Position numbers and translations under genes: made by a program. A model generated the notes under the pieces. That model was given only the letters and a program-made list of their open reading frames with translations. It had not been told where the DNA came from and did no database searches. From Acidobacteriota bacterium (GTDB taxonomy: Bacteria; Actinomycetota; Acidimicrobiia; Acidimicrobiales; CADCSY01), in NCBI GenBank assembly GCA_019510095.1, contig JAEKLB010000029.1, forward strand, positions 1-34,744: a stretch of DNA of 34,744 bases, written 5' to 3'. This document shows, one piece after another, positions 705 to 21,805 of this stretch. How positions within the stretch are numbered: position 1 is the first letter of the stretch; every line of letters begins with the position of its first letter.

Positions 705-2279
705 ATGGCACCGACGGATACTCAGCCGGCACTCGTTCGTCGGCGGATCCTTGCTGGCGGTGAGCTTGCCAAGTTCACTGCGGCGGTGGCACTGCTGGCC
801 ATCCTGGCGGACGCGGTTCTCGGTCACGCGTTGGCGTGGGAGAACGACCCCTACTGGACGTACTGGGTCACGAAGACATTCCTGATAGCGACGATCTTCG
901 GGTTCGGCACTGCCTGGCTCGGGGTCGGCGTCACGCAGGGCGCTGCCATCACGGTCATCCACACGATCGTGCTGACCGTCTACTACTGGTCGCTTTCACC
1001 GATTGGCCTACCGTCCCATCCTGACTGGCTCGATCTAGAACACACCTGGATCACCGGTGTCCCGATCCATTTCGGCGTGATCTACCTCGGCTACCTCGCA
1101 GCGCTTTGGCTGTGGTGGCATCGTCAGCGGATCATCGCCTCGGACGATGGTCACCCAACCGGCACGCCGCGCGCCTTGGGAGTGCTAGCGGTCACGGTCG
1201 TTGCGGTGATGGTGATGGGCGCGCTCGAGGCGGTTGCTATCGGCGAGTTCGAGGGCGTCACTTGGTACGTCGTCCGGCTGCTGATCGCCGGGGCCTTTCT
1301 GCTCGCCTGGTCTGACTTCGCCGGGCGGTCGCTACGTGCGGCGGTCGCGGGCACTGTCATTCTGACCGGCGCGCTCACTGCCTATAGCCACTTCCTCGGC
1401 CCTGTTGGGTTGCCAGATACGCCGATCCGCGTCTTCGAACGTGCGGCACCGGGTGCCACGGTTCACTGGCTGACCTATCGGCAAGAGGCCTTCATGGCCC
1501 TGCCGATCACGTTTCTCACATTGCTGGGGGCCACGTGCTGGATGGCTCGCGACGACCTCGGTCGGCTCCGCCGAGAGCGTCGCAGCGCACTCGGCTTCGC
1601 CGCTGGCGTGCTTGTGCTCGCGGCCGTCGGCGCTGTCATCGCCCCGAGCGTCGGGCCGAACAGCAACCGCGTCGCGGTGCGCGCCACCGGCAGCACTGAA
1701 GTTGAGACCGGCTCGTTCTTCAGGGGACCCTTCCAGCCCGGCGATGGACGCCTGACCCTAAGTGCCATCGACCGCAACCCGCGCGTCAGTCCGCTGCCGC
1801 CGCACGACATCGTCCGTCTCACAGCGGAGCTCACCGGATCCGATGGACACCGATACGTCGTTAAAGCGGACCGGCCGATGGTCGACGACCCCCTCGGCAG
1901 GTTCACAACATGGTGGGGGGTCGGCACGAACGTCTGGCATCACGGCCGCAGCGGAATCGGAACGCCGCTGATCCCCGCCACCCTGTCGAAGGTCGCCGTC
2001 TTCGCCCTCGGTGACGTCACCCGCGACGGCACACCTGTCGCGGTTGCGGTGCCCCTACACGTCATGACGATGGCCGACGACATGGTCGAACTCGATGTCG
2101 GCGACCCATCGGTCGCCATCCCAGCGCTACCACAAGGCCATCTCCGCGCCCGCTGGCTCACAGCCAGCGTGGTGAACCACCAACCGAAGGTCCCGCACTA
2201 CACATGCGGTGTCGTCACTCTCTTCGCGCTCTTGGCCCTGGTCGGCGCCGCCCTCAGAGAAGACCGGCTGCAGTCTTGA
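705..2279 (+). CDS. Unrecognised polytopic membrane protein with large extracytoplasmic domain
   Basis: A 524-residue protein I do not recognise. Hydrophobic segments suggest about nine membrane helices in the first 312 residues (roughly 20-42, 57-75, 78-100, 117-140, 155-180, 185-203, 210-230, 262-280, 292-312). A hydrophilic stretch of about 180 residues follows (315-500), then one final helix (about 500-517) and a short basic tail. The hydrophilic part, with DGxxLTLSAIDRNP-like and ELDVGDP-like text, looks like a beta-rich extracytoplasmic domain. The ATG at 705 is preceded by AAAGGAG at good spacing. No enzyme motif is visible. It stands alone, with an HNH fragment upstream and a convergent transporter component downstream, so context gives no role. 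Confidence 0.8.
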   Translation: MAPTDTQPALVRRRILAGGELAKFTAAVALLAILADAVLGHALAWENDPYWTYWVTKTFLIATIFGFGTAWLGVGVTQGAAITVIHTIVLTVYYWSLSPIGLPSHPDWLDLEHTWITGVPIHFGVIYLGYLAALWLWWHRQRIIASDDGHPTGTPRALGVLAVTVVAVMVMGALEAVAIGEFEGVTWYVVRLLIAGAFLLAWSDFAGRSLRAAVAGTVILTGALTAYSHFLGPVGLPDTPIRVFERAAPGATVHWLTYRQEAFMALPITFLTLLGATCWMARDDLGRLRRERRSALGFAAGVLVLAAVGAVIAPSVGPNSNRVAVRATGSTEVETGSFFRGPFQPGDGRLTLSAIDRNPRVSPLPPHDIVRLTAELTGSDGHRYVVKADRPMVDDPLGRFTTWWGVGTNVWHHGRSGIGTPLIPATLSKVAVFALGDVTRDGTPVAVAVPLHVMTMADDMVELDVGDPSVAIPALPQGHLRARWLTASVVNHQPKVPHYTCGVVTLFALLALVGAALREDRLQS

Positions 2280-2449
2280 CCGACCCCGGAGTACGTACGC
2301 CCTCGGCGGATTACCCGACTGTGCCCGAAGCCCGAACGCCTGCATCATGTCAAACGCGACACCGGACCCGGTGTTTGGACCCGCCCCGCGATCCTCCAAG
2401 ACCGCGCGCCGAGTCATCGCCCAGCATCACCGACCGCCGGCAACGCGAG

Positions 2450-2479
2450 ACCGGCCCCCGGCGGGCGCCGGGGGCCGGT
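2450..2479. terminator. Perfect GC hairpin between convergent genes
   Basis: A 13-bp perfect stem (ACCGGCCCCCGGC / GCCGGGGGCCGGT) closes on the 4-nt loop GGGC. It lies 171 nt past the stop of the membrane protein gene and 37 nt past the stop of the convergent solute-binding protein gene. There is no T-tract on either side, so it is a candidate bidirectional, L-shaped terminator of the kind common in high-GC actinobacteria. Confidence 0.6.
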
Positions 2480-2516
2480 TCGGGACGTGGTCAGGTTGTG
2501 TTCGACCCGGCGGATC

Positions 2517-3905
2517 TCAACCCAGGGCGGGCGGACCGGTTGAGGTGTAAACGGCCCCGGTGCCACAGATGAAGGTCAGCTTGGTGACGATCTGGCCGTG
2601 GGTGTCCATGTGGTAGAGCTTGCCGTCCTTGACGATGTGCTCGGTCCAGCAGTCGCTCGCGGCGTGCTTGCCGGTACCGGGTCGTTGTACGGAGTAATCC
2701 TGCGGCGCGATCTGGCCGCCGAGGTCCTCGTGGTGGATCGTGTAGATCGTGTCGATGAACTGTTGGCGGGTCGGGACGCCGGTGGTGGTGAGGCGCTTGG
2801 TGATCGCTCCGATCATCTCCATGGCGAGCCACACCTGCACCGATGACTGGGTGGCCGTGCCGTCTTCGACCTTCTGGTCGGTGTGGGCCAGGGCCTGGCG
2901 GAACCGCTGGACTTCGGGACCGTTGTAGAAGATGCCGAACTCGAAGAGGTTGCCGGCAACGTTCTCGCCCTTGGCCGCGTCGATGACTGCCTGGTTGGCG
3001 GCGCCGCCCTGGGCGTAGGTCGGGTGGTAGTTCTGCCGTGAGCAGTCACGAATGACGTTGGCGAAGTTCAGGCCGTTCGACTGGAAGAAGTCGACGCCGT
3101 CGTTCTTCGCAGATAGGCAGAGCGCCGTGTAGTCGGGCGCGACCGCTGATGCGCCCTGCGAGGAGAACTTCAGACCCTCTCGATCAGCGGCGTACTTGGT
3201 CTTGCCGACCGAGGTGGCGCACGCAGCGACCTCGGCGCAGTAGGCGTTCAGGAAGTGCTTGGCGCCGACATCACGAGCGGCGGCCACCTGGCCATAGGTA
3301 CCGGCTCCCGTTCCGGCCTGCACCTGGAAGAACATCGGGTGCCAGTCGAACTCGTTGGTATAGGGCTGGCCGCCGATCACCGGCAGGTTGAGCTTGGTCA
3401 TCTCGTCGCGCAGCGGGGGGAGGACCGAGGCGTCGGTCTGGGTGAAGGCGATGACGCCGGCCTTGTCCAGTTCCTTGAGGGCGTTCAGGGCCCGGGCCGG
3501 GTCGCCGTTGACGTTCTTGTAGACGAGCTCGAACTTGTAGCCGTTGATCCCGCCCGCAGCGTTGACGGCGTCGATCCACGCCTGGCCCATCTGCTTGCCC
3601 TCAGGCGCCTGGGCCTGGCCACGGCTGTTGATCTGGCTTTCGATGACGCCGAGCTTGATCGTGCCCTTGTTGGCGTTGGCCGTCTTGGCTGTCGTCGTGG
3701 TCGCTCCGCTCTTGGCGGTGGTCTTCTTGGTGGTGGCCGCCTTCTTGCGCACGCACTTGCGGGCCTTGTTGCGGGCGAAGCCCTTCTTGCAGGCCTTCCT
3801 GGTCGCGGCCGACGCCGTCGACGTGCCCGCGAGCGTCGTCAGCAGCCCGAGCGTCAACAGGATGGCCAGGCCACGGCGTATCCGGCCGCGGGCGATCTTG
3901 GTCAT
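2517..3905 (-). CDS. Secreted ABC transporter substrate-binding protein, branched-chain amino acid type
   Basis: A 462-residue periplasmic-binding-fold type 1 protein of the LivJ/amide-binding kind, expected to capture a small organic acid, amino acid or amide outside the membrane. Residues 1-33 form a classic signal peptide (RR-basic n-region, LAILLTLGLL core, cleavage after ASA). No lipobox cysteine follows. An unusual Lys/Thr-rich segment (about 34-77) contains a C-KKGFARNKARK-C pair before the binding domain starts at GTIKLGVI. The body carries the expected NAAGGINGYKFELV and ALNALKELD features. The ATG at 3905 has GGGGGGAG upstream. No permease or ATPase gene lies nearby, so it is an orphan component; proximity to the CoA-catabolic genes suggests, but does not prove, that it delivers their substrate. 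Confidence 0.88.
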   Translation of the reverse strand: MTKIARGRIRRGLAILLTLGLLTTLAGTSTASAATRKACKKGFARNKARKCVRKKAATTKKTTAKSGATTTTAKTANANKGTIKLGVIESQINSRGQAQAPEGKQMGQAWIDAVNAAGGINGYKFELVYKNVNGDPARALNALKELDKAGVIAFTQTDASVLPPLRDEMTKLNLPVIGGQPYTNEFDWHPMFFQVQAGTGAGTYGQVAAARDVGAKHFLNAYCAEVAACATSVGKTKYAADREGLKFSSQGASAVAPDYTALCLSAKNDGVDFFQSNGLNFANVIRDCSRQNYHPTYAQGGAANQAVIDAAKGENVAGNLFEFGIFYNGPEVQRFRQALAHTDQKVEDGTATQSSVQVWLAMEMIGAITKRLTTTGVPTRQQFIDTIYTIHHEDLGGQIAPQDYSVQRPGTGKHAASDCWTEHIVKDGKLYHMDTHGQIVTKLTFICGTGAVYTSTGPPALG

Positions 3906-9911: not shown

Positions 9912-11161
9912 CAGCGTGTGCTCCTCGTCTGGGGGCCGTCGTCGGCCCGGGGCTCTCGGGGGAGGCCGAGCACCTGCTCGCCCAGGATGTTGCGTTGCAC
10001 CTGCGACGTGCCGGCGTAGATGGTGCCGGCCCGGGCGGTGATGAACGTGCCGACCCACGACGCGCTGTCGTTGGGCGCCCCCGGATCATCGGTGCGCACG
10101 CTGCCAGTTGGCCACCGGCCGGTCGGCGTCAACGCGTCGGCACCCAGGATGTCGACGGCCAGCTCCGTCACCCGCTTGTGGTACTCGCTCCAGTACAGCT
10201 TCGACACCGAGGCGGCCGGTCCCGGGTCGTGGCCCTTCAGCAACGGGCCGAGCGCCCGCATGCCGAGCCAACGCATGATCTCGACCTCGGCGTGAGCCTG
10301 GGCGAGGCGCTGGCGGAAGGCCGGCGAGGTGGCGGCGCCACGCTCCTTGGCCATCGCCAGCAGGCGGTCGAGCTCCTCGCGGAACTTGATCGGGAAGGTC
10401 GCGGCCGCCTCGCCCCGCTCGAAGCCGAGGAGGGTGTTGGCCACCGCCCAGCCGCCGTTGACCTCGCCGACCACGAGGTCGGCATCGGTGACGGCGTCGG
10501 TGAAGAACACCTCGCAGAAGTGGTGCTGGTGGCCGGCGGTCTTGATCGGCCGTCGCTCGATGCCCGGCTGGTCCAGGGGACACAGCAGGAAGCTGATGCC
10601 CTTGTGTTTGGCCGCTGCCGGATCGGTCCGGGTGAGCAGGAAGATCCAGTCGGCCCGCTCCGCCCACGACGTCCACAGCTTCTGGCCGTTGAGCACCCAC
10701 CTGTCGCCGACCAGCTCGGCCCGCAGCGAGAGGTTCGCCAGGTCGGAGCCGGCCGACGGCTCGGAGAAGCCCTGGCACCAGTGGTCGTCGCCCGAGAGGA
10801 TGCGGGGGAGGAACCGCTGCTTCTGCTCCTCGGTGCCCCACCGCAACAGCGTGTTGCCCAGCATCTTCATGCCGAATCGGTCCCAGACGCTGACATCGGG
10901 GAGCCCGGCCTTGACCAGCTCCTCGGCGAGGATGACCTGTTCGTTCTGGCTGAGGCCGCGGCCGCCGTACTGGGTCGGCCAGGTGACCGCCAGCAGGCCG
11001 GCCTCGTAGAGCTTGCGGCGGAACTGCTCGGTGAACGCCTCGAAGGCGTGCTCGTCGAGGGCCCCGGAGCCCTTCCAGCCGGGCGGCAGGTTGGCGGCGA
11101 GGAAGTCGCGCACCTCGGTCCGGAACGGCTCGACGGTGGTCGGTGTCGCCGTGCCGGTCAT
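9911..11161 (-). CDS. Acyl-CoA dehydrogenase (FadE-like)
   Basis: A 416-residue flavoprotein that introduces an alpha,beta double bond into an acyl-CoA. Typical features are WPTQYGGRG, the flavin/substrate signature GFSEPSAGSDLA, and the C-terminal YAGTSQVQRNI. In the last motif the Glu that is the base in medium-chain enzymes is Ala, so the base, if any, must be elsewhere, such as the Glu of GFERGE in the helix used by isovaleryl-CoA dehydrogenase. The ATG at 11161 overlaps the stop of the fused CoA-transferase (ATGA), and its own stop overlaps the following SDR start. Steroid-type ACADs with this look often act as heteromers; no adjacent ACAD partner exists in this run, so a partner could come from elsewhere. 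Confidence 0.9.
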   Translation of the reverse strand: MTGTATPTTVEPFRTEVRDFLAANLPPGWKGSGALDEHAFEAFTEQFRRKLYEAGLLAVTWPTQYGGRGLSQNEQVILAEELVKAGLPDVSVWDRFGMKMLGNTLLRWGTEEQKQRFLPRILSGDDHWCQGFSEPSAGSDLANLSLRAELVGDRWVLNGQKLWTSWAERADWIFLLTRTDPAAAKHKGISFLLCPLDQPGIERRPIKTAGHQHHFCEVFFTDAVTDADLVVGEVNGGWAVANTLLGFERGEAAATFPIKFREELDRLLAMAKERGAATSPAFRQRLAQAHAEVEIMRWLGMRALGPLLKGHDPGPAASVSKLYWSEYHKRVTELAVDILGADALTPTGRWPTGSVRTDDPGAPNDSASWVGTFITARAGTIYAGTSQVQRNILGEQVLGLPREPRADDGPQTRSTR

Positions 11162-12825
11162 GACAGCAGGATCCGCTCTCGGTCCCAGCCCCGCAGGGTC
11201 AGGATCTCCTTCATGGTCGGCGCCGTGATCTCGGCCACGTTGCGGTCGACCTCGAGCGGCCAGCCGCACGCGCCCACGGCGGCCCGCACCCGCTCGTCGA
11301 GCGATCCCTCGCCGGCGATGACCGCGGCCAGCTGCAGCTCGCCGTCACGCTTGCGCAGGATGCCCAGGTCGGTGCAGACCGTGGCCACCTTGTCGCCGGG
11401 GCTGGTGACGAATGCGCACCGTTCGACCAGCCGGCGGGGCGAGGCCACCAGCGCCAAGACCGTCTCGTCGCAGCCAGCGGCCACGTCGGCGCCGCCGCCG
11501 GAGCCGGCCAGGAACGAGGTGCCGGGGATGATCGTGGAGTTGATGTTGCCGCGACGATCGACCTCGGCGCCGCTCATGCAGCCGATCGTCACCGTGCCCG
11601 GGCCGCCCACCACCGTGCCCAGGATCGTCGAGCAGTCGCTCAGCATCTCGGCGCCGGGGAAGACGCGATGGTTGAAGATGAAGGGATCGGCAGGGGTGGG
11701 CTGGTAGCCCCACATGCCCATCTCGGCGGTCAGGCGCACCTCCGTGCCCTCCTGGCGCGCCAGTCCGGCGCCGGCCCACGACGCCAGGTTGGAGATCCCG
11801 GCGCCGGCGAGGATGGCGTGGGCGCCGAGGGCGATCACCCGGTCGCTCAGCTCTCGAGCGCAGATCGCTGCCGCGATCTCCTGCTTGGTGATCGGCGCGT
11901 CCTCGTCGATCGGCTGGGCGCTGTCGTCCTCGCGCCACGAGTCGGCCTCGCCCCGTCGCAGCAACCACTGGAGATGGTCGGCGCCGAGCTTGTCGTTCCA
12001 GGTCTGCTGATCAGGGACCTCGAGCACCCATTCCTTGATCCAGGCGTCGTAGTCGGCCCGGCTGTGCCTGGCGATCTCGTTCCAGAAGGGGATGTCCTCG
12101 CCGTAGCCCTGCGACGGCAGGTCACCGGCATAGACGCCGCCGGGGTGGGCCCCGAACGGGGCCTCCACCACTGCGAGCACGCGGTGGGCGGGCAGCTTCA
12201 CCGACGCGTTCCACGGCGACAGGTCGTCGACGACCTTGTCGACGGTGACGATGGCGCCGCGCCGGGCGCCCCAGCCCGCCCACAGCCCCTCCATCAGCGG
12301 GCCGGTGAGCGCCACGTTGCCGTGCACATCGGCGACGGGGGCGTGCAGGAGGAACACGTCGGTCCCCATCGGCGCCACCAGTCCGACCTCGCCGAACGGC
12401 GTGTCGACCGACGTGTAGGCGTCATTGCCCGCCATGTCCGTGCCCCGGAGCGATGCTGTGACCGACGCCGGAAGGCCGCGGGCGGCGGCCTCGTTGCGTT
12501 GCTGGTAGGTCAGGATCGACCAGTGCTCGATGTCGATCTCGGCGTCGCCCACTGCTCGGGCGTAGATCGGGTTCGGGCCGCCGGTGGGGAAGCCGTCGCC
12601 GGCGTAGGCGGTCGTGAGCTTGCGGAGCAGCTTGCCGTGGAGGAAGAGGGTGCCGAGGTTGCCGCACGACAGGAACTGGAGCTCGAACTGTGGATCGGTT
12701 CCCCAGAACTGGCGGCAGACCTCGCGGGCCACCGCGCTCCATCGGCTGTGGCCGTAGAAGATCTGGAGCGAGTCGCCCGGGCGGACGTGCTTCTCGACCG
12801 CGTCGGCGAGGCTCAGATGCTCCAA
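11158..12825 (-). CDS. Class I CoA-transferase, alpha and beta subunits fused (IpdAB-like)
   Basis: A 555-residue protein combining both subunits of a class I CoA-transferase: alpha-like residues 1 to about 290 and beta-like about 325-555, joined by a polar linker (RRGEADSWREDDSAQ). The beta half carries GAEVDRRGNINST (419-431) and AEMGMWG, in which E368 aligns with the catalytic Glu of the ENG motif. Its closest look-alikes by eye are the IpdA/IpdB proteins of actinobacterial steroid C/D-ring degradation, where CoA-transferase-fold proteins hydrolyse a ring ketone; whether this one transfers CoA or opens a ring is unknown. Mycobacterial IpdA and IpdB are separate proteins, so the fusion is notable. 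Start is TTG at 12825, six nt after the ECH stop; no better start lies upstream. Confidence 0.85.
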   Translation of the reverse strand: MEHLSLADAVEKHVRPGDSLQIFYGHSRWSAVAREVCRQFWGTDPQFELQFLSCGNLGTLFLHGKLLRKLTTAYAGDGFPTGGPNPIYARAVGDAEIDIEHWSILTYQQRNEAAARGLPASVTASLRGTDMAGNDAYTSVDTPFGEVGLVAPMGTDVFLLHAPVADVHGNVALTGPLMEGLWAGWGARRGAIVTVDKVVDDLSPWNASVKLPAHRVLAVVEAPFGAHPGGVYAGDLPSQGYGEDIPFWNEIARHSRADYDAWIKEWVLEVPDQQTWNDKLGADHLQWLLRRGEADSWREDDSAQPIDEDAPITKQEIAAAICARELSDRVIALGAHAILAGAGISNLASWAGAGLARQEGTEVRLTAEMGMWGYQPTPADPFIFNHRVFPGAEMLSDCSTILGTVVGGPGTVTIGCMSGAEVDRRGNINSTIIPGTSFLAGSGGGADVAAGCDETVLALVASPRRLVERCAFVTSPGDKVATVCTDLGILRKRDGELQLAAVIAGEGSLDERVRAAVGACGWPLEVDRNVAEITAPTMKEILTLRGWDRERILLS

Positions 12826-12831
12826 CGAGCG

Positions 12832-13634
<803 letters not shown>

Positions 13635-13638
<4 letters not shown>

Positions 13639-14057
13639 GGCGCGGACAGGCCCATGGCGGCGACGCCGGTCTGGGCCAGATCGATGTCCTCCTCGCCGGT
13701 GCGGCCGCTCACGCCGATGGCGCCCACCACCTGGCGGTCGACCCGGATGCACACACCGCCGCCAGCGAACACCAGCTTGGGATCGCCGAGGTTGCCGAAC
13801 TCGAACCCGATCCCGCGCATGCGTTCGGCGAAGGCGGCCGAGTCAGCGCCCATGCGGGCTGCCGTGTAGGCCTTCCGCATGGCCATGTCCCGGGGCAGGT
13901 AGCCGGACCCGTCCATGCGAGCGAGCGCAATGGCCTCACCTTCCGCGTCGACCACCACCACCGTGATCGCCCGACCCGCCTCGGCGGTTGCCTTCTCCAG
14001 CACCGCGTCGATTGCCTTGCGGGCGTCGTCGAGGTCGATCTGCTTCTTCTCGTACAT
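13635..14057 (-). CDS. GlcG/HbpS-type heme-binding-fold protein
   Basis: A 140-residue GlcG/HbpS-fold protein, recognisable by the [13 protein letters not shown] start, [20 protein letters not shown] core, KAYTAARMG helix and [19 protein letters not shown] end. HbpS of Streptomyces binds heme and senses redox stress; many relatives sit in catabolic operons with no known job, and some are thought to be enzymes or chaperones. No signal peptide is present, so it is cytoplasmic. It starts at ATG 14057, 27 nt after the thiolase stop, with a weak ribosome site, and its end overlaps the ECH start. Confidence 0.85.
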
Positions 14058-14084
14058 GGGGCAGGAGTCTGCCCGCGCCGGCGC

Positions 14085-15284
14085 CTAGATGCGCTCGATG
14101 ATGGTGCCGGTGCCGAGGCCGCCGCCGCAGCACATCGAGACGAGGCCGTAGCGGCCCCCGGTGCGCTCGAGCTCGTTGAGGGCCTTGGTGATGAGGATGG
14201 TGCCGGTGCCGCCGAGCGGGTGGCCGAGGGCGATGGCGCCGCCATTGGGATTGACCTTGTCGATGTCGACGTCGAGCTCCTTGCGCCACGCCAGCACCAC
14301 GGACGCGAAGGCCTCGTTGACCTCGAAGACGTCGATGTCGCCCAGCGACAGGCCGGAGCGCTCGAGCAGGAGGCGGGTGGCGGGCATCGGGCCGGTGAGC
14401 ATGAGCTCGGGATCGGAACCGGCGAGCACCGAGTCGACGAGACGGGCTCGGGGCGTGAGCCCGAGCTCGTCGGCCTTCGCTGCCGTCATGAGCAGTGCGG
14501 CGCCGGCGCCGTCGGAGACCTGTGACGAGGTTCCGGCGGTGTGGAGGGAGGGCCGGTCGGACTCGCGGGGGTTGGTGCGGAGCTTGGCCAGCCCTTCGAG
14601 GGTGGTCTCCCGCAGCCCCTCGTCGCGGTCGAAGGTCTTGGTGCCGACCACCGCGCCCTTGTCGTCGAGCACCGGCGCCTCGACCGGGATGATCTGGCCG
14701 TCGAACCGGCCCTCGGCCCAGGCCGCGGCGGCTAGGTCCTGCGAGCGCTTGCCGAAGGCGTCGAGCTCATCGCGGCTGAGGCCCCACGACTCGGCGATGC
14801 GGTCGGCCCCCTCGAACTGCACGGTCGGCTCGTAGACCTCGGGATAGCGGCCGCCGCGGGGCTGGCCGAAGTCGGGCTCCTCCGGCGCGTTCGAGCCCAT
14901 CGGGATGCGGCTCATCCCCTCGACGCCGCAGGCGACGGCGATGTCGACCAGGCCACTCCCGATCATGGCGTGGCAGAGGGTCACGGCCTCCTGGGACGAC
15001 CCGCACTGGTTGTTCACGGTGACCGCCGGGACCTCGAGCGGCAGGCCGGCCATCAGCCAGGCGTTGCGGATCACGTTGCCCGACTGGTCGCCGATCTGGA
15101 TGACGTTGCCGCCGACGACGTGGCCGATCGACTGAGGATCGACTCCCGGGTTGCGGGCGAGCAGGCCGTTGAGCACCTGGACCAGGATCTCCCGCGACGG
15201 CATCGTCGAGAGGGCGCCGTTCCGCCGGCCCACCGCCGATCGCACCGTGTCGACGATCACCACGTCGTTCTTGGAACCAGCCAT
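14085..15284 (-). CDS. Acetyl-CoA acetyltransferase / 3-ketoacyl-CoA thiolase
   Basis: A 399-residue thiolase expected to cleave a 3-ketoacyl-CoA with CoA, releasing acetyl- or propionyl-CoA. The nucleophile is C94 (NNQCGSS), the His is H355 (GHPLGGTG) and the second Cys is C385 (CCGGGLGTG). NEAFASV and the SDGAGAALL segment are standard. Overall it resembles the steroid thiolases FadA5/FadA6 of mycobacteria, but a general degradative thiolase cannot be excluded. It lies in the middle of the long minus-strand run, 59 nt after the SDR gene and 27 nt before the GlcG-like gene. Confidence 0.93.
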   Translation of the reverse strand: MAGSKNDVVIVDTVRSAVGRRNGALSTMPSREILVQVLNGLLARNPGVDPQSIGHVVGGNVIQIGDQSGNVIRNAWLMAGLPLEVPAVTVNNQCGSSQEAVTLCHAMIGSGLVDIAVACGVEGMSRIPMGSNAPEEPDFGQPRGGRYPEVYEPTVQFEGADRIAESWGLSRDELDAFGKRSQDLAAAAWAEGRFDGQIIPVEAPVLDDKGAVVGTKTFDRDEGLRETTLEGLAKLRTNPRESDRPSLHTAGTSSQVSDGAGAALLMTAAKADELGLTPRARLVDSVLAGSDPELMLTGPMPATRLLLERSGLSLGDIDVFEVNEAFASVVLAWRKELDVDIDKVNPNGGAIALGHPLGGTGTILITKALNELERTGGRYGLVSMCCGGGLGTGTIIERI

Positions 15285-15343
15285 CCCATGTCCTCCCTCG
15301 GTCGGCGAGCCAACGGTAGCGGCGAGCTCCTCCCGAGGCTCGG

Positions 15344-16258
15344 TCAGAGCTTGGGCATGAACTCCGGGATGCCGGTGTCGCGGTCCTTGAACAGCTCGCC
15401 GCGCAGCGACTCGATGCGGTCGATGCTCCAGTCCTTGCCGTCGGCGTCGATCTGGGTGACCGGGTGCCAGCCCTGCACCACTTGGATGCGCCTGCCGTTC
15501 ACGGCGAAGACCTGGCCGTTGACGTCCTTGGCCAGATCGGTGCAGAGCCAGACCACCAACGGGGAGATCTGGTGCGGGCCCCGCGGGTCGTAGGTGCCGG
15601 GCGGCGGTGCCTCCTGGTCGCCGGTGATGGTGGCGAGCAGTCGGGTCTGGGCGGCGGGCGCGACGGCGTTGGAGCGCACGCCGATGCGCTCGAGGTCGCG
15701 GGCCATGGTGATGGTCAGGGCGGCGATCCCCATCTTGGCCGAGCCGTAGTTGGCCTGGCCGAAGTTGCCGTAGAGGCCGGCTTCCGACGAGGTGTTGACG
15801 ATCACGCCGTTCACCAGCTCGCCGGTCTTCTTGTTGAGGTCCTTCCAGTACGCAGCAGCATGGCGGGAAGGGCCGAAGCTGCCCTTGAGGACGACCGCGA
15901 CCACGGCGTCGAACTCCTCCTCCGACATGTTGAAGGTCATGCGGTCGCGGAGGATCCCGGCGTTGTTGACGAGGATGTCGAGCCGCCCGAAGGTGTCGAC
16001 CGTCTGGGCGACCAGCTCCTCGGCCGCCTTCCAGTCGGCGACGTTGGCGCCGTTCACCGCGGCCCGCACGCCCAGCGCCCGCACCTCCTCGGCGACCTCC
16101 TGGGCCGGCGTGAGGTCATGGCCCTCGCCCCGGCCATCGCCGCCGAGGTCGTTGACCATCACGTCGGCGCCCTCCTTGGCGAGAAGCAGCGCGTGCTCAC
16201 GCCCGATGCCGCGCCCGGCGCCGGTGACGATGGCGACCTTGCCGTCGAGCAGTCCCAT
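15344..16258 (-). CDS. SDR, (3R)-hydroxyacyl-CoA dehydrogenase / 17beta-HSD4-like
   Basis: A 304-residue SDR of the multifunctional-enzyme-2 type. It has TGAGRGIG (12-19), the diagnostic VNDLGGDGRG stretch, NNAGILRDRM (98-107), S158, Y171 and K175. Relatives oxidise 3-hydroxyacyl-CoAs, including steroid side-chain intermediates in mycobacteria. About 50 residues after the core (IQVVQGWHPV to the end) are an extension shared with this type. The ATG at 16258 has AGGAG at good spacing and lies 5 nt after the stop of the CaiB gene. A second protein of the same class is encoded at 32912-33829, so the two blocks may handle different intermediates. Confidence 0.9.
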   Translation of the reverse strand: MGLLDGKVAIVTGAGRGIGREHALLLAKEGADVMVNDLGGDGRGEGHDLTPAQEVAEEVRALGVRAAVNGANVADWKAAEELVAQTVDTFGRLDILVNNAGILRDRMTFNMSEEEFDAVVAVVLKGSFGPSRHAAAYWKDLNKKTGELVNGVIVNTSSEAGLYGNFGQANYGSAKMGIAALTITMARDLERIGVRSNAVAPAAQTRLLATITGDQEAPPPGTYDPRGPHQISPLVVWLCTDLAKDVNGQVFAVNGRRIQVVQGWHPVTQIDADGKDWSIDRIESLRGELFKDRDTGIPEFMPKL

Positions 16259-16263
16259 GGTGG

Positions 16264-17499
16264 TTACTCCTGTTCTGGCGCCTGGAAGATGGCGCCGGTC
16301 GATTCGAGCGATGCGAGGTCGGCGTCGCTGACGGTGACCCATTCGCGAAGGATCTCGTGCGTGTGCTCACCGAGCATGGCACCTGCAGTGTCCAGCCGGC
16401 CTGGTGTGCGGCTGAGGTGCTGGATGGGGCCGGGGTAGGTGACGACGCCGTAGGTCGGTTGGTCGAGCCGCACGTGGTAGCCGCGGACGCGGAGCTGGGG
16501 GTCTCGCCAGATGTCCTCGCTGTCGTGCACGGCCGAGGCTGCCAAGCCCGCCTTCTGGAGGAGGTGGGCGCCGGTGTGGTTGGTGTACTGCGCGAGCCAG
16601 ACCAGGAGCTCCACCTCGAGCTCGCCGCTCCGTTCGCCCGCCTCGGCCTGATCGGCGACCTCGAGATCGGGCCGCTCGAGGAACCGGCACAGCGTCGACC
16701 AGTCGTCGTGGTCCTCGAGCTCGATGGCGAGCCAGGCGTCGTGGCCGAGGCATTGGAACACGCCGGTGAACCACGAACCGGGCACGACGTTGTCGGCCCG
16801 CTCGTAGTCGCGCCCGTTGTTCAGCGGCTCGGCGTACAGGGGTGCCATCAGTGTGGCCATGGCGTCGATCTGGGCGACGTCGACGTACACGCCCGCGCCC
16901 GTGCGTTCGACCTCGGCCAAGGCGCCGACGGCACCGAGCGACGCGGTGACACCAGTGACGTAGTCGGACTGGGTCCCGTGGCTGTAGCCCCAGGCCGAGG
17001 TCAGCCCGATGTAGCCGGCAATGTTCGACGCGTAGGCAAGGTAGTTGGCGCGTGGGCCCGTGCGGCCGTACCCCGAGAGCGAGACCCATACCAGGCGGGG
17101 GTTGTCGACGAGCAGGTCCTCGAACGAGCAGCCCCACCTGGCAAGTGTCGGGCCGGCGAAGTTCTCGATGAGCACGTCGGCGCCCTTGACCAGCTCGTGG
17201 AAGAGGGTCCGGGCCGCCTCTTGCCGCATGTCGATCGACAGGTTGCGGACGTTACGGGTCAAGGTGCCGTACATCACCGTCTGGGGCGCACCCGACTGCT
17301 CGGTGAAGGTGGGGCCGATGGCGAACGATGGCAGCCGCAGGACCTCGGGCCGGTCGAAGGCCTCGATCTTCACCACGTCGGCGCCCAGCTCGGCCAGGTG
17401 GCCGCCGGCCGTTCCGCCTGCGACGAAGGTGCCGAAGCTCAGCACCCGCACGCCGTCGAGCGGGCGCGGGCCTCCATGCGCGGTGCGCTGCTCAGACAA
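16264..17499 (-). CDS. CaiB/BaiF family (class III) CoA-transferase
   Basis: A 411-residue class III CoA-transferase, which moves CoA between acids through an aspartyl-CoA mixed anhydride. The N-terminal PLDGVRVLSFGTFVAG and LGADVVKIE motifs are standard, and the likely catalytic Asp is D179 in SDYVTG. The start is a TTG at 17499, overlapping the last 8 bases of the upstream CaiB gene (TTGTCTGA); the frame further upstream is the antisense-like shadow of that gene and reads as low-complexity Arg/Ser text. Together with the preceding CaiB it forms a tandem pair, which may be a heteromer or two enzymes for successive acids. Confidence 0.9.
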   Translation of the reverse strand: MSEQRTAHGGPRPLDGVRVLSFGTFVAGGTAGGHLAELGADVVKIEAFDRPEVLRLPSFAIGPTFTEQSGAPQTVMYGTLTRNVRNLSIDMRQEAARTLFHELVKGADVLIENFAGPTLARWGCSFEDLLVDNPRLVWVSLSGYGRTGPRANYLAYASNIAGYIGLTSAWGYSHGTQSDYVTGVTASLGAVGALAEVERTGAGVYVDVAQIDAMATLMAPLYAEPLNNGRDYERADNVVPGSWFTGVFQCLGHDAWLAIELEDHDDWSTLCRFLERPDLEVADQAEAGERSGELEVELLVWLAQYTNHTGAHLLQKAGLAASAVHDSEDIWRDPQLRVRGYHVRLDQPTYGVVTYPGPIQHLSRTPGRLDTAGAMLGEHTHEILREWVTVSDADLASLESTGAIFQAPEQE

Positions 17500-18715
17500 G
17501 GCCCGCCTGCTTCCAGCCGTCCAGCTCGGCGGCCGCATGACCGAGCTCGTCCAGATAGAGCTCGCGGTTGTGCTGGCCCAGCGTCGGGGCGGGTCGGCGC
17601 AACGTGAGGAGGGCGGGCGACGACTTGAACGAGCCCCATGGCAGCTCGACGGTGCCGGTCCCCTCGTTGGTGGTCGACACGAACATGCCCCGGGCCCGGG
17701 CGTGGTCGTCGCGCACGAACTCGCCTGGTGTGTTCGACGGGTTGCACGGCAAGCCGAATCCCTGACCCCGCTCGAACAGGTCGAGCCGCGACTCCTTGGC
17801 CAGCAGGTCGGCGATGGTGTCCCGGAGGCCTTCGAACAGGTCACGCCGCACCAGCGGGTCGCTGAGCGATGGCTCGGCCAGCTCCTCGGGATGGCCGAGC
17901 ATGGCCAGGAAGGCCTCCCAGTGGTACAGCTGGTGGGTCGACACCTGGAGCTCGCCGTCGGCGCACGCCCAGGCTCCGGTCGGCGGGTAGCCGACGAGGA
18001 TGGAACGCCCCCAGCCTCCGAGCCCTGTCATGTCGTACCGCTCGAGCAGGAAGTCCTTCGACGCCGCCACCTCGTGCACGGCGAGATCGAGGACCTGGCC
18101 GCCGGCGGTGGGCCGGGCCCGCAGGCCGGCCATGGTGCCGAGCGCGGCGTAGATGCCGGCCTCGTCCCACTGCTGCTGGCCGGGGACCGCCACCGGGGGG
18201 CCGTCGGGTGCGCCCGTTCGGTGCATGCCGCCCCCGGCGGCATAGGACGTGAACGCGGTCGCCCGGTGATCGCGCATGGGGCCGGTGAGCCCGAACGGCG
18301 TAACGGCGGTGACGATGGCGTCCGGCCGGGCCCACGCCAGTGTCATGGCGTCGCGGTCCCAGCCGGCCAGGGGCGCGCGCCGGGACGGCGAGATCACGAC
18401 CGCGTCGGCAGTGGCGCCCAGCTCGGCGAGCAGGGGGAGTGCAGCGTCGCTGGTGGCATCCAGCGTGATGCCGCGCTTGTTGGCGTTGTGGCAGGCGAAG
18501 ACCAGGCTGGCCTCTGGAGCGGTGACGCCGTCCTTGAACGGCGGCCGCCGGCGAAGGGCATCCCCGGTCGGCGGCTCGACCTTGACCACGTCGGCGCCGA
18601 GGTCGGCGAGGAGGCGGGTGCCGTAGGCGCCGATGGCACCGGAGAGGTCGAGCACGCGCACGCCGTCGAGCGGCTGTGGCGCGTCTCTCTCGGCTGGGTC
18701 GTGCTGGTCCGCCAT
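17492..18715 (-). CDS. CaiB/BaiF family (class III) CoA-transferase
   Basis: A 407-residue class III CoA-transferase. It opens with PLDGVRVLDLSGAIGAYGTRLLADLGADVVKVE-type text, contains ACHNANKRGITLD, and has its probable catalytic Asp at D184 (QWDEAG). It differs from its downstream neighbour enough to be an old duplicate or a separate specificity. The ATG at 18715 has a strong GGGGAGGA site. A 66-nt gap separates it from the uncharacterised 341-residue gene upstream, and its end overlaps the next CaiB by 8 nt. No terminator is seen in that gap, so it probably belongs to the same transcript. Confidence 0.9.
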   Translation of the reverse strand: MADQHDPAERDAPQPLDGVRVLDLSGAIGAYGTRLLADLGADVVKVEPPTGDALRRRPPFKDGVTAPEASLVFACHNANKRGITLDATSDAALPLLAELGATADAVVISPSRRAPLAGWDRDAMTLAWARPDAIVTAVTPFGLTGPMRDHRATAFTSYAAGGGMHRTGAPDGPPVAVPGQQQWDEAGIYAALGTMAGLRARPTAGGQVLDLAVHEVAASKDFLLERYDMTGLGGWGRSILVGYPPTGAWACADGELQVSTHQLYHWEAFLAMLGHPEELAEPSLSDPLVRRDLFEGLRDTIADLLAKESRLDLFERGQGFGLPCNPSNTPGEFVRDDHARARGMFVSTTNEGTGTVELPWGSFKSSPALLTLRRPAPTLGQHNRELYLDELGHAAAELDGWKQAGLV

Positions 18716-18781: not shown

Positions 18782-19807
18782 CTAGGGGATCGCGACCGTC
18801 TGGGAGAGGGTGGCGCCCCAGCTGTGCAGGGCAGCGGCGTGGAGGTTGCCGAGGCCGCCGGCAACACAGAAGAGCATGGCCTCCTCGTCCTGCACGAGGT
18901 GGACGCGGCCGTCGTGGCCGACGCGGCCGTGGGCGTTCAGCGAGGGGTGGTAGGCGGGCGGCCACCAGTCGACGGGCAGCGCGGCGTGGTCCCAGAGCAG
19001 CCGCCTGACCTCGTCGGCCTCGGGGATGTCGCGGGCGATGATCTCGGCCCAGACCGGGTTGATGCAGACGAGCATCTCCGAGAACGCCGACGAGGTGAGG
19101 AAGCCGTTGGCACCCGGGTAGGCGCACGACTTGCCGATCAGCTCGAGCAGGTCGGGACCGTTGTCGGCGACCAGGTCGCAGATGTTGGCCGTGCCCATGG
19201 CGCCGTACACCGTGACGGCGTCGCCGCTGACGCCTCGGCGTTCGGCCAGGGGCGCCCAGGGCGACCGCTCCTCCCACTCGCCGAACACGATGCCGGTGAC
19301 TCGCCCCGGTGTTCCGAAGACGCTCTGCGACGTGGTCCCGATGCGCTGGCCGCCGACGTTGCGCATCACCAGGCGCACGGCCCGGCCGATGGTGGGTGCC
19401 GAGCCGGCCACGCCGCCGAGGCAGCCGGCGCCGAACGGGATGCCGAGCTGGTGGCGGATCGGGCCGTTGACGAGCATGGCCGGCACGACCGAGCCGGTGG
19501 TGGCGTTCAGCGCATGGAGGTCGAAGTCCTCGATGGCCATGGCCTCGATCGACGCCCGGAGGAGCGGCAGCGCCGCTGCCGGGGCGCCGGCCATCACGGC
19601 GTTGATGGCGAGCTTCTCCATCGTGCAGGGCGCGCCCGACGGCGGGAGCGTTGCGATGACGTCGTCGGGGTCGGCGCCGCCGAGGAACCGGGTGACCCGC
19701 TCGGGCGTGGGCGGGATCAGGGGGAGGCCGTCACCCCAGCCGCGCGCCAGGGCGTCGGCGGTGAAGGCTTCGATGTCGGCCGGTACCTCGAGCGCGGCGC
19801 TGGGCAC
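18782..19807 (-). CDS. Uncharacterised partner of the CGSC protein
   Basis: A 341-residue cytoplasmic protein with no function I recognise. It opens with a conserved-looking motif RGWGDGLPLIPPTPERV (22-38), followed by C61 in PCTMEKLAINAVMAG, FGAGCLGG, ANICDLV, KSCAYPGANG, LVCINP and LFCVAGG. Several Cys thus sit in glycine-rich contexts, which may indicate metal or thiol chemistry. Proteins opening with a DGLPxxPPT motif are, from memory, found beside UGSC-family proteins, as here. The start is GTG at 19807, one base after the stop of the CGSC gene (TGACGTG), so the pair is tightly coupled. It is not a known CoA enzyme, yet it lies inside a CoA-catabolic operon. Confidence 0.7.
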   Translation of the reverse strand: MPSAALEVPADIEAFTADALARGWGDGLPLIPPTPERVTRFLGGADPDDVIATLPPSGAPCTMEKLAINAVMAGAPAAALPLLRASIEAMAIEDFDLHALNATTGSVVPAMLVNGPIRHQLGIPFGAGCLGGVAGSAPTIGRAVRLVMRNVGGQRIGTTSQSVFGTPGRVTGIVFGEWEERSPWAPLAERRGVSGDAVTVYGAMGTANICDLVADNGPDLLELIGKSCAYPGANGFLTSSAFSEMLVCINPVWAEIIARDIPEADEVRRLLWDHAALPVDWWPPAYHPSLNAHGRVGHDGRVHLVQDEEAMLFCVAGGLGNLHAAALHSWGATLSQTVAIP

Positions 19808-19808
19808 G

Positions 19809-20648
19809 TCAGCCCGTGGTGATGCCGAGCACGTCGACGAGCGTGTCGAAGAGCTGGCTGCCGATGGCCCGGACCTCGTCCTCGGGGCGGGTGTCGAGCG
19901 GGTACGGCAGGACGACGAAGCGGAGGTTGGGCCGGCCGTACTGGCTCGCCAGCATGCGACCCAGCCCTTCGAAGTGCTCGGTGACCACCGCGACGGTCGC
20001 GAGACCGGCATCGGCGGCCGCCACCGCGTCCTTGATCGTCCACGACGTGCACGAGCCGCAGTTGCCGAGGCCGACGACGGCCACGTCGAGCTCCTCGAGG
20101 AACCTGGCGTAGGCGTGATGGTGCTCGGCGCCCTCCGGCCCAGCCAGGCCCTGGATGTGCCGGAACGACGAGGTCGCCGCGCCGGCCGCGGTCAGGCGCG
20201 CCGACCACTCCTCGCTCATCCAGTCCCACGATCGCCACAGGACGTCGACGCGGAAGCCGACCCGGCGCCCGGCGATCGGACCGGCGTCAGGGCCGGGGTC
20301 GCGGTTGCCGCCCTCGGGCCGGCTGGTCGGGTCGAGCACCAGCAGGGTGCCGGGTCCCGCGGGCGCGGGGGCGCCCGCCATCTCGCGCGGGTCCTCGACC
20401 ACCACGCCACCGGCGGGCGGGAGGCTGGGCCGCAGGCGGGACTCGATGACCTCGCGGAGGGCGGTTGGCGGCAGGACGCAGTCGAGGCACTCGACTCGGG
20501 CGAGGTCGATGGCGACCCTCGCGGTGGCGCCGTCCCACGCGGTGAGCCTCAGTTCGACGCCGTCGCCGCTGACGATGGCCCGGAGGTGGTCGAGGGCCTG
20601 CTCCACGCCGTCACGAGAGGCCTGAACGTCGATCGCCACCGGACGCAC
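19809..20648 (-). CDS. UGSC-family protein, Cys form, with NifU-like N-terminal domain
   Basis: A 279-residue protein with two parts. Residues about 1-85 resemble the NifU C-terminal Fe-S domain: GDGVELRLT, a beta strand, then C54-L-D-C57, PPTALREVIESRL and VVVEDP. Residues about 100-279 carry LGNCGSCTSW, with C197-G-S-C200 matching the redox-like motif of the UGSC family, where the first Cys is often selenocysteine. Here the codon is TGC, so no selenocysteine is needed. Two CxxC-type sites in one protein suggest an Fe-S or disulfide redox role, but the activity is unknown. It starts at GTG 20648 (an in-frame GTG three codons later is an alternative) and heads the 12-gene minus-strand run. 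Confidence 0.75.
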   Translation of the reverse strand: MRPVAIDVQASRDGVEQALDHLRAIVSGDGVELRLTAWDGATARVAIDLARVECLDCVLPPTALREVIESRLRPSLPPAGGVVVEDPREMAGAPAPAGPGTLLVLDPTSRPEGGNRDPGPDAGPIAGRRVGFRVDVLWRSWDWMSEEWSARLTAAGAATSSFRHIQGLAGPEGAEHHHAYARFLEELDVAVVGLGNCGSCTSWTIKDAVAAADAGLATVAVVTEHFEGLGRMLASQYGRPNLRFVVLPYPLDTRPEDEVRAIGSQLFDTLVDVLGITTG

Positions 20649-20677: not shown

Positions 20678-21805
20678 GTGCCTCCCCTCGCCACCGGTGG
20701 GCCGCTCGCCGGCCTGCGCGTCCTCGACACCGCCACCTTCTATGCCGGGCCGATGATCTCGACCCTGCTCGCCGACCAGGGGGCCGACGTGGTGAAGGTC
20801 GAGCCGCCGGGCGGGGACGACTACCGCCACCAGATCGGGCGCATGTGGACGCTCTTGGCCCGCAACAAGCGGTCGATCGTGCTCGACCTGGCCACCGATG
20901 GCGGGCGCGACGAGCTGCTCGAGCTGGTGGGCGCGGCCGACGTGATCGTCCTCAACATGCCGCTGGCCACCTTGGCCAAGCGGGGGCTCGACCACGCGAC
21001 CCTGCTGGTCCGCAACCCGGCGTTGGTCATCGCCCAGGTCACCGCGTTCGGCATGGACGGCCCAGAGGCCGACAGGCCAGGCAACGGCACCGTGGCCGAG
21101 GCCTACAGCGGCCTCACCCACATGACCGGCGACCCTGCCGGCAGCCCGGTGCTGGCGTCGGTGCCGGTCGGCGATGCCGTGACCGGCTTCGCCGGCGCCT
21201 TCGCCGTGCTGGCGGCCTGCTACCGGCGGCTGGCGACCGGAGGTGGCGGGGTGGTGATCGACGTCAATCCGTTGGAGGCCATGCTGCATGTGGCCGGGAC
21301 CATGCTCACCGCTCACTCCGGGGACGGCCAGCCGCCGAGCCGGCTCGGCAGCCAGCTGCTGGGGTCGGTGGTGCGCAACGTCTTCCCGACCGCCGACGAC
21401 CGATGGGTGGCGATCAGCCTCTCCTCGGCGCGCCACGTGGCGGACGGCGCCGCGCTGGTGGGCCACGACGGCCGCAGCAGCGAGCTCGACGACAGCGTCC
21501 GGGCCTGGACGTCGAGGCACACCCAGGACGAGGTGCTCGCCGCGTTCGTGCAGGCCCGCCTCCCGATCGGGCCGGTGCAGGATGCCGCCGAGGTCGTCGC
21601 CCACCCGCACGTGGTGGCGCGGGGCAGCGTGCGGCGGGTGCAGACGGCCGAGGCCGGCCCGGTGTGGTCGCCGGGGCCTGCCCCTCGTGTGCTCGGCGCC
21701 GAGGCCGATCTGCCGTGGCGCACGCCCGATCTCGACGAGCACCACGCCGACGTCCGCCACGACTGGCTGGGCCGGCCCGCGAAAGAACAACTTGGGCGGC
21801 CGTAG
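20678..21805 (+). CDS. CaiB/BaiF family (class III) CoA-transferase
   Basis: A 375-residue class III CoA-transferase with GLRVLDTATFYAGP, LADQGADVVKVEPP, ARNKRSIVLDL and the likely catalytic Asp D166 in PVGDAVTG. It is the third CaiB in the window and the only one on the plus strand. The GTG at 20678 has no clear Shine-Dalgarno; TAGAAC six nt upstream could be a -10 for a leaderless or near-leaderless message. Only 29 bp separate it from the divergent CGSC gene, so the two must share one small control region. It converges on the ligase gene, with a hairpin between them. Confidence 0.9.
   Translation: MPPLATGGPLAGLRVLDTATFYAGPMISTLLADQGADVVKVEPPGGDDYRHQIGRMWTLLARNKRSIVLDLATDGGRDELLELVGAADVIVLNMPLATLAKRGLDHATLLVRNPALVIAQVTAFGMDGPEADRPGNGTVAEAYSGLTHMTGDPAGSPVLASVPVGDAVTGFAGAFAVLAACYRRLATGGGGVVIDVNPLEAMLHVAGTMLTAHSGDGQPPSRLGSQLLGSVVRNVFPTADDRWVAISLSSARHVADGAALVGHDGRSSELDDSVRAWTSRHTQDEVLAAFVQARLPIGPVQDAAEVVAHPHVVARGSVRRVQTAEAGPVWSPGPAPRVLGAEADLPWRTPDLDEHHADVRHDWLGRPAKEQLGRP

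Follow-up and report, generated by a model that had tools for sequence, protein, structure and literature searches.

Members of the UGSC family, a known orphan family of (seleno)proteins (PF24696, NF041046), form a real, near-obligate pair with a second protein, referred to here as P2, in both bacteria and archaea. One such pair, in which the UGSC member (P1) carries an additional NifU-like domain, is encoded in the stretch of DNA analyzed here (the window; contig JAEKLB010000029.1, positions 1 to 34,744, assembly GCA_019510095.1), which comes from an Acidobacteriota bacterium assigned by GTDB to Actinomycetota (Acidimicrobiales). We put at about even the chance that P1 and P2, each as one subunit, make up a reductase that is linked to thioredoxin, uses a thiol (a selenol in most relatives), and resembles GrdB/PrdB, the selenocysteine (Sec)-containing subunits of glycine, sarcosine, betaine, and D-proline reductases, with P2 as the substrate-binding subunit. 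A broader proposal is offered more tentatively, as somewhat short of an even chance: UGSC and P2 would represent a new, widespread class of thioredoxin-dependent reductases of Actinomycetota, Proteobacteria, and haloarchaea, with a GrdB-like subunit and a substrate subunit of an undescribed family and fold that replaces the pyruvoyl subunit, cleaving a carbon-heteroatom bond in a carboxylate or a CoA ester; the form in the window would be wired to a NifU-type CxxC motif.

Through the pairing, the fusion to thioredoxin, and the connection to GrdB/PrdB, the orphan UGSC family becomes a testable candidate for a two-subunit reductase, and P2, a protein not covered by any Pfam or NCBIfam model, acquires a specific function that experiments can address. 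If P2 is indeed the near-obligate partner, the true enzyme would go unnoticed in assays restricted to UGSC. In the open-access literature, we found no paper naming P2, the UGSC-P2 pairing, the thioredoxin fusion, or the relation to GrdB, and no functional study of UGSC in connection with NifU, GrdB, or operons. A 2008 survey mentions a fusion of UGSC to an unnamed domain, “Unknown_1” (PMC2398784), which may or may not be P2.

Domain architecture of the two proteins

The two genes and the sequence features discussed below are as follows.

19809..20648, reverse strand: P1, a NifU-like/UGSC fusion in the cysteine (CGSC) form, 279 amino acids (translation, Pfam, AlphaFold2 model)
20403..20606, reverse strand: NifU-like domain of P1, residues 15-82 (PF01106 and a profile compared with PDB NifU/NFU chains)
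20478..20489, reverse strand: C54-x-x-C57 motif of the NifU-like domain (conservation, alignment to 1xhj)
19824..20339, reverse strand: UGSC domain of P1, residues 104-275, predicted Rossmann-like α/β and likely GrdB-like catalytic half (PF24696, model, hhalign)
20049..20060, reverse strand: C197-G-S-C200, predicted catalytic motif of P1 (conservation and TGA scan of relatives)
18782..19807, reverse strand: P2, the DGLPLIPPT protein, 341 amino acids, a near-obligate neighbor of UGSC with no named family (translation, Pfam/NCBIfam, surveys, AlphaFold2 model)

Both genes start with GTG, and the junction between them reads TGA-C-GTG, so that P2 begins exactly one base past the stop codon of P1, as originally described. 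Residues Cys54, Cys57, Cys197, and Cys200 of P1 are all encoded by TGC codons. The C-terminal part of P1 is a clear member of the UGSC family, scoring 123.1 bits against PF24696 (cut-off 25, residues 104-275) and carrying the [C/U]GSC motif at positions 197-200; it differs from typical members in having the added N-terminal domain and in the Cys form of the motif. With the NCBIfam model NF041046 (“UGSC family (seleno)protein”), P1 scores 71.9 bits over residues 178-274 and does not reach the threshold of 125, which makes it a UGSC_fam homolog and not the same equivalog. Translation, Pfam, and profile comparison thus agree with the initial description of P1 as a NifU-like C54-x-x-C57 domain joined to a C197-G-S-C200 UGSC domain. 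Searching the PDB with the sequences of P1 and P2 returned nothing useful.

P2 had been described as an unrecognized protein, and it is one: it has zero matches in Pfam and NCBIfam, and none of its 47 relatives has a credible family match there either. Its constant residues are D26, G27, P29, T103, T104, R142, and E177, along with several Gly residues. The original prediction also drew attention to several Cys residues of P2; each of the six is found in only 1 to 18 of the 47 aligned sequences, so this feature is weaker than described, and the notion of P2 as itself a cysteine redox protein was rejected. P2 was modeled by AlphaFold2 with high confidence (pLDDT 92.7, pTM 0.91), but Foldseek found no PDB match with E ≤ 1e-3 (best TM ~0.24), and nothing usable came from a fold search of PDB and viral libraries. 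An origin of P2 from UGSC by duplication was rejected.

Pairing and phyletic distribution

In 298 genomes of the order, UGSC was found in 145 and P2 in 148; both were present in 141 genomes, UGSC only in 4, P2 only in 7, and neither in 146. These are raw genome counts that ignore kinship, with positives spanning ~80 genera. Gene neighborhoods were surveyed in 40 actinobacterial loci from 38 genomes (21 chosen by the presence of P2 and 19 by that of UGSC) and in 20 control regions. UGSC adjoins P2 in every one of the 21 loci picked for P2, and P2 adjoins UGSC in 17 of the 19 picked for UGSC; the 20 controls contain neither gene. The expected co-occurrence of the two genes is therefore evident both in the neighborhoods and in the ratio of 141 genomes with both genes to 11 with just one.

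In the P2 tree, the copy from the window clusters with those from Nocardia, Frankia, and Blastococcus (support 99/92). The pair is plasmid-borne in haloarchaea, Paracoccus, Acidovorax, Variovorax, Roseovarius, Neorhizobium, and Arthrobacter. UGSC and P2 are fused in a single open reading frame in loci L022 and L023, in Sporomusa (L082), and in Vibrio (L129); the L022 fusion (967-2733, reverse strand) has a variant U-D-G-C motif, with U encoded by TGA. In two haloarchaeal loci (L083, 5983-8645, and L128, 5279-7978), P2 paralogs flank a single UGSC gene on both sides, suggesting a heteromeric P2.

The UGSC motif and the Sec/Cys exchange

With TGA read as Sec, the positions of C197 and C200 are invariant in all 44 UGSC sequences, and G198, S199, T201, D207, and F226 are nearly as constant; Cys54 and Cys57 are likewise invariant in the 12 NifU-like copies, so that all four Cys residues singled out in the original prediction proved to be conserved. 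The codon at the C197 position is TGA in 42 of the 62 motif-bearing loci scanned, including the majority of actinobacterial relatives. SelB scored above the curated cut-off in 19 of the 21 genomes with TGA and in none of the 6 Cys-only genomes. The genome of the window itself encodes a SelB fragment (G000:C59:23744-24373, 219 bits) that runs into the contig end. The Sec machinery is thus probably present in this organism although P1 uses Cys, and the Cys form of P1 was probably not forced by its loss.

The motif is not universal. Three of the fused relatives, L023 (700-2499), Sporomusa L082 (6284-8008), and Vibrio L129 (6335-8020), lack the Cys residues and have GDMGTSSATT or similar motifs instead; the C197/C200 chemistry is therefore unavailable to some members of the wider family. 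The Sporomusa and Vibrio fusions adjoin aconitase X/DUF126 genes and may represent a non-redox branch of the family. Because these Cys-less proteins retain P2, they lend some credence to the view that the entire pair is a non-redox enzyme acting on small acids (a lyase, hydratase, or racemase) in which Cys or Sec serves as a base or a covalent catalyst. The neighboring genes for acid and CoA catabolism fit such an activity, as do the weak Foldseek matches of P2 to class I fumarases and to cyclic amide hydrolases, albeit at TM ~0.24; these matches were given no weight in the preferred reading. We nevertheless regard it as unlikely: a single catalytic Cys would not require the invariance of both C197 and C200, and Sec in the motif, the fused thioredoxin domain, and the trxA/trxB neighbors (see below) all point to redox turnover.

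Predicted fold of UGSC and its probable relation to GrdB and PrdB

In the AlphaFold2 model of P1 (pLDDT 89.9, pTM 0.67), the UGSC part is a Rossmann-like α/β domain built of successive strand-helix units, with strands at residues 129-135, 158-164, 189-195, 217-223, and 243-247; C197 lies where the helix after the third strand begins. Foldseek matches of this domain are weak and flavodoxin-, LarB-, or NQO-like. The thioredoxin fold proposed for UGSC in the 2008 survey (PMC2398784) is not supported by this model. That work placed UGSC with thiol oxidoreductases, which, like the UxxC motif, would suit a generic thiol peroxidase or disulfide reductase that guards the CoA pathway, with P2 as its chaperone or scaffold. 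Such a role seems very unlikely, since the modeled fold is neither that of thioredoxin nor that of peroxiredoxin, P2 is a near-obligate partner with strongly conserved polar residues of its own (D26, T103, T104, R142, and E177), and the neighboring genes serve catabolism and transport (ABC and TRAP transporters among them) and not the stress response.

An hhalign comparison of the UGSC profile with a GrdB/PrdB profile (13 sequences from Actinomycetota) gave an 88.5% probability (P 2.8e-6) for an alignment of ~82 columns that surrounds the motif and keeps Sec and Cys in register; the similar region comprises the U/C-G-x-x motif plus the helix and strand that come after it. Comparisons with 30 column-shuffled decoys, one reversed decoy, GrdE, and P2 were all below 1%. 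With only the long or only the short GrdB-like sequences, the probability dropped to 49% and 66%, respectively; the relation is therefore probable, though not firmly established. In contrast to GrdB/PrdB, UGSC lacks the N-terminal region of GrdB, and none of the 44 UGSC members has a direct match to PF07355. Shared traits of the two groups include the Sec/Cys exchange and a connection to thioredoxin, which is the reductant in glycine reductase.

The partner subunits are different. By profile, P2 is unrelated to GrdE/PrdA (0.5% probability against PF09338), and its identification as a GrdE/PrdA counterpart was rejected on that basis; nor is any of its conserved residues a Cys from which a pyruvoyl group might arise. 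This difference need not be prohibitive: a GrdB homolog predicted to remove fluoride from fluoroacetate has a partner that lacks the pyruvoyl site and the pyruvoyl-forming Cys (PMC10838667), and the pyruvoyl group is therefore not essential to enzymes of this type. The survey of GrdB-like sequences also brought up short proteins of Actinomycetota (L074-L077 and similar loci) that match PF07355 positions ~213-345 and have an in-frame TGA in a U-x-x-C motif right past the end of the model; several of these are possible unannotated selenoproteins.

Links to thioredoxin

P2 is extended at its N terminus by a further domain in 12 of the 40 actinobacterial loci. Compared with the PDB, this domain matches thioredoxins (best E 6.7e-7) and has both the CxxC motif and the VPT/cis-Pro in place. 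These 12 proteins (Trx-P2) form one fully supported clade in the P2 tree; their individual sequences fall below the Pfam reporting level, and the window has no such domain. Separate thioredoxin genes are found near the pair elsewhere: trxB adjoins it in Variovorax (L084), Roseovarius (L125), and Neorhizobium (L130), and in Arthrobacter (L126) the genes are consecutive in the order trxB-trxA-P2-UGSC. No separate trxA or trxB gene is found within ~8 kb of the pair in any of the 40 actinobacterial loci. The recurrent ties to thioredoxin genes suggest that the pair reduces a small organic acid or a CoA compound. The initial idea of a redox pair not described before is in keeping with the fused thioredoxin domain and with trxA/trxB as neighbors, although P2 itself is not a cysteine redox protein.

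The NifU-like domain

The single-sequence score of P1 residues 15-82 against PF01106 is 26.8 bits, just under the curated cut-off of 27; other copies score 27.2 (Arthrobacter), 33.4 (L055), 23.8 (L061), and 18.2 bits (L062). A profile built from 12 NifU-like relatives matches the PDB entries 2z51 (E = 1.8e-7), 1xhj (1.3e-4), and 2jnv (1.6e-4), with the CxxC motif in register with that of 1xhj, so the predicted NifU fold has significant support. The domain differs from the typical NifU C-terminal (NFU) domain in its motif, ECLDCVLPP where CxxCPSS is usual, and in its fusion to UGSC. A relationship of its CxxC motif to thioredoxin was rejected (hhalign 11%, not significant).

The NifU-like domain is an optional accessory that is missing from most relatives: it is found near the pair in 13 of the 56 sequences of the P2 tree and in none of the Trx-P2 clade, a distribution that takes at least six changes on the tree to explain. 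In the window, in Blastococcus (L061), and in Nocardia flavorosea (L062), the domain precedes UGSC as an N-terminal fusion; in Arthrobacter (L126), it is fused to the C terminus instead. The two fusion arrangements and the patchy but recurrent association argue that this domain works with UGSC, either through a cluster or through a thiol relay. In the Frankia metagenome-assembled genome (L063, 9935-10745), the frame of the NifU-like part is not that of the UGSC part, and there is an internal stop; this may reflect an assembly error, separate genes, or decay.

The Fe-S or metal site originally proposed for this domain, and the binding or transfer of an Fe-S cluster by it, are putative features suggested by sequence similarity. 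P1 might accordingly be viewed as an iron-sulfur protein whose NifU-like domain holds a cluster or delivers it to UGSC or P2, with the pair carrying out Fe-S redox chemistry. The invariant, in-register CxxC motif and the linkage of the domain to UGSC/P2 loci in several lineages, with fusions at either end of UGSC, speak for this possibility, which we consider quite improbable: most UGSC/P2 pairs have no NifU-like gene nearby, P2 offers no conserved Cys ligands, and UGSC supplies just two invariant Cys residues. The lack of overlap between NifU-like loci and the Trx-P2 clade (2.1 of 40 expected, p ~0.06) would fit an alternative thiol relay as well; with this p value and a Trx group that is a single clade, the mutual exclusion is suggestive only.

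Proposed mechanism

Returning to the GrdB-like reductase, its reaction can be sketched by analogy with glycine and D-proline reductases. In the mechanism proposed for them, a selenolate takes over the carbon of the substrate; cleavage of the C-Se bond then yields a selenenylsulfide, which is reduced by a dithiol (PMC10298544). By this analogy, P2 would bind the substrate, for which a small carboxylate or the CoA ester of one is the most likely candidate. The thiolate of Cys197, at the N terminus of a helix in the UGSC domain, would attack the substrate and displace the leaving group, and Cys200 would resolve the adduct, producing a C197-C200 disulfide (an Se-S bond in the Sec forms). Thioredoxin would then reduce P1 again, either directly or via the CxxC motif of the NifU-like domain. 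We infer the mutual binding of P1 and P2, the nucleophilic attack, the holding of the substrate by P2, the path of electrons, and the part played by the NifU-like domain.

The near-obligate pairing, the Sec/Cys exchange, the thioredoxin fusion and neighbors, and the in-register similarity to GrdB/PrdB count in favor of this scheme. The shortness of that similarity, the lack of a PF07355 match, the dissimilarity of P2 to GrdE/PrdA, the absence of separate trxA/trxB genes within ~8 kb of the pair in the 40 actinobacterial loci, and the Cys-less fusions count against it.

CoA-related gene neighborhood

The genes surrounding the pair in the window are as follows.

20678..21805, forward strand: third CaiB-type CoA-transferase, divergent from P1 (PF02515, 318 bits)
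17492..18715, reverse strand: CaiB-type CoA-transferase (family III), 66 bases after P2 (PF02515, 215 bits)
16264..17499, reverse strand: second CaiB-type CoA-transferase (PF02515, 257 bits)
11158..16258, reverse strand: rest of the probable operon, encoding an SDR, a thiolase, an HbpS-like protein, an enoyl-CoA hydratase, and a family I CoA-transferase (Pfam/NCBIfam)

The second CaiB gene has a probable TTG start that overlaps the stop codon of the first, and the genes at 11158..16258 probably belong to the same operon, judging by strand and spacing. The genes for the thiolase, the HbpS-like protein, the enoyl-CoA hydratase, and the 555-amino-acid family I CoA-transferase occupy positions 11158-15284 of the reverse strand. 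The closest model for the thiolase is the steroid 3-ketoacyl-CoA thiolase (below the cut-off), and the enoyl-CoA hydratase scores above the cut-off of PRK07327.1 (NCBIfam).

The original prediction had placed the pair at the head of a CoA-catabolic operon with two CaiB enzymes. The two CaiB genes and the other CoA-related genes do lie downstream on the same strand, and a CaiB gene is also found near the pair in the relatives of the same subclade (L061, L062, and L063) as well as in L083, L125, L127, and L128. In the broad survey, CaiB genes were found near the pair in 5 of the 40 actinobacterial loci and in none of the 20 controls, which is not significant (Fisher p 0.16). A CaiB neighborhood as a general rule was therefore rejected; the proximity is a property of the subclade of the window and some others only. 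It is these neighboring genes that suggest a CoA link of the substrate, and the link holds for the subclade of the window. In Arthrobacter sp. ERGS1:01 (L126, 4716-6995), a gene annotated as phosphosulfolactate synthase lies directly upstream of trxB-trxA-P2-UGSC and may point toward a sulfonate or a sulfur compound as the substrate.
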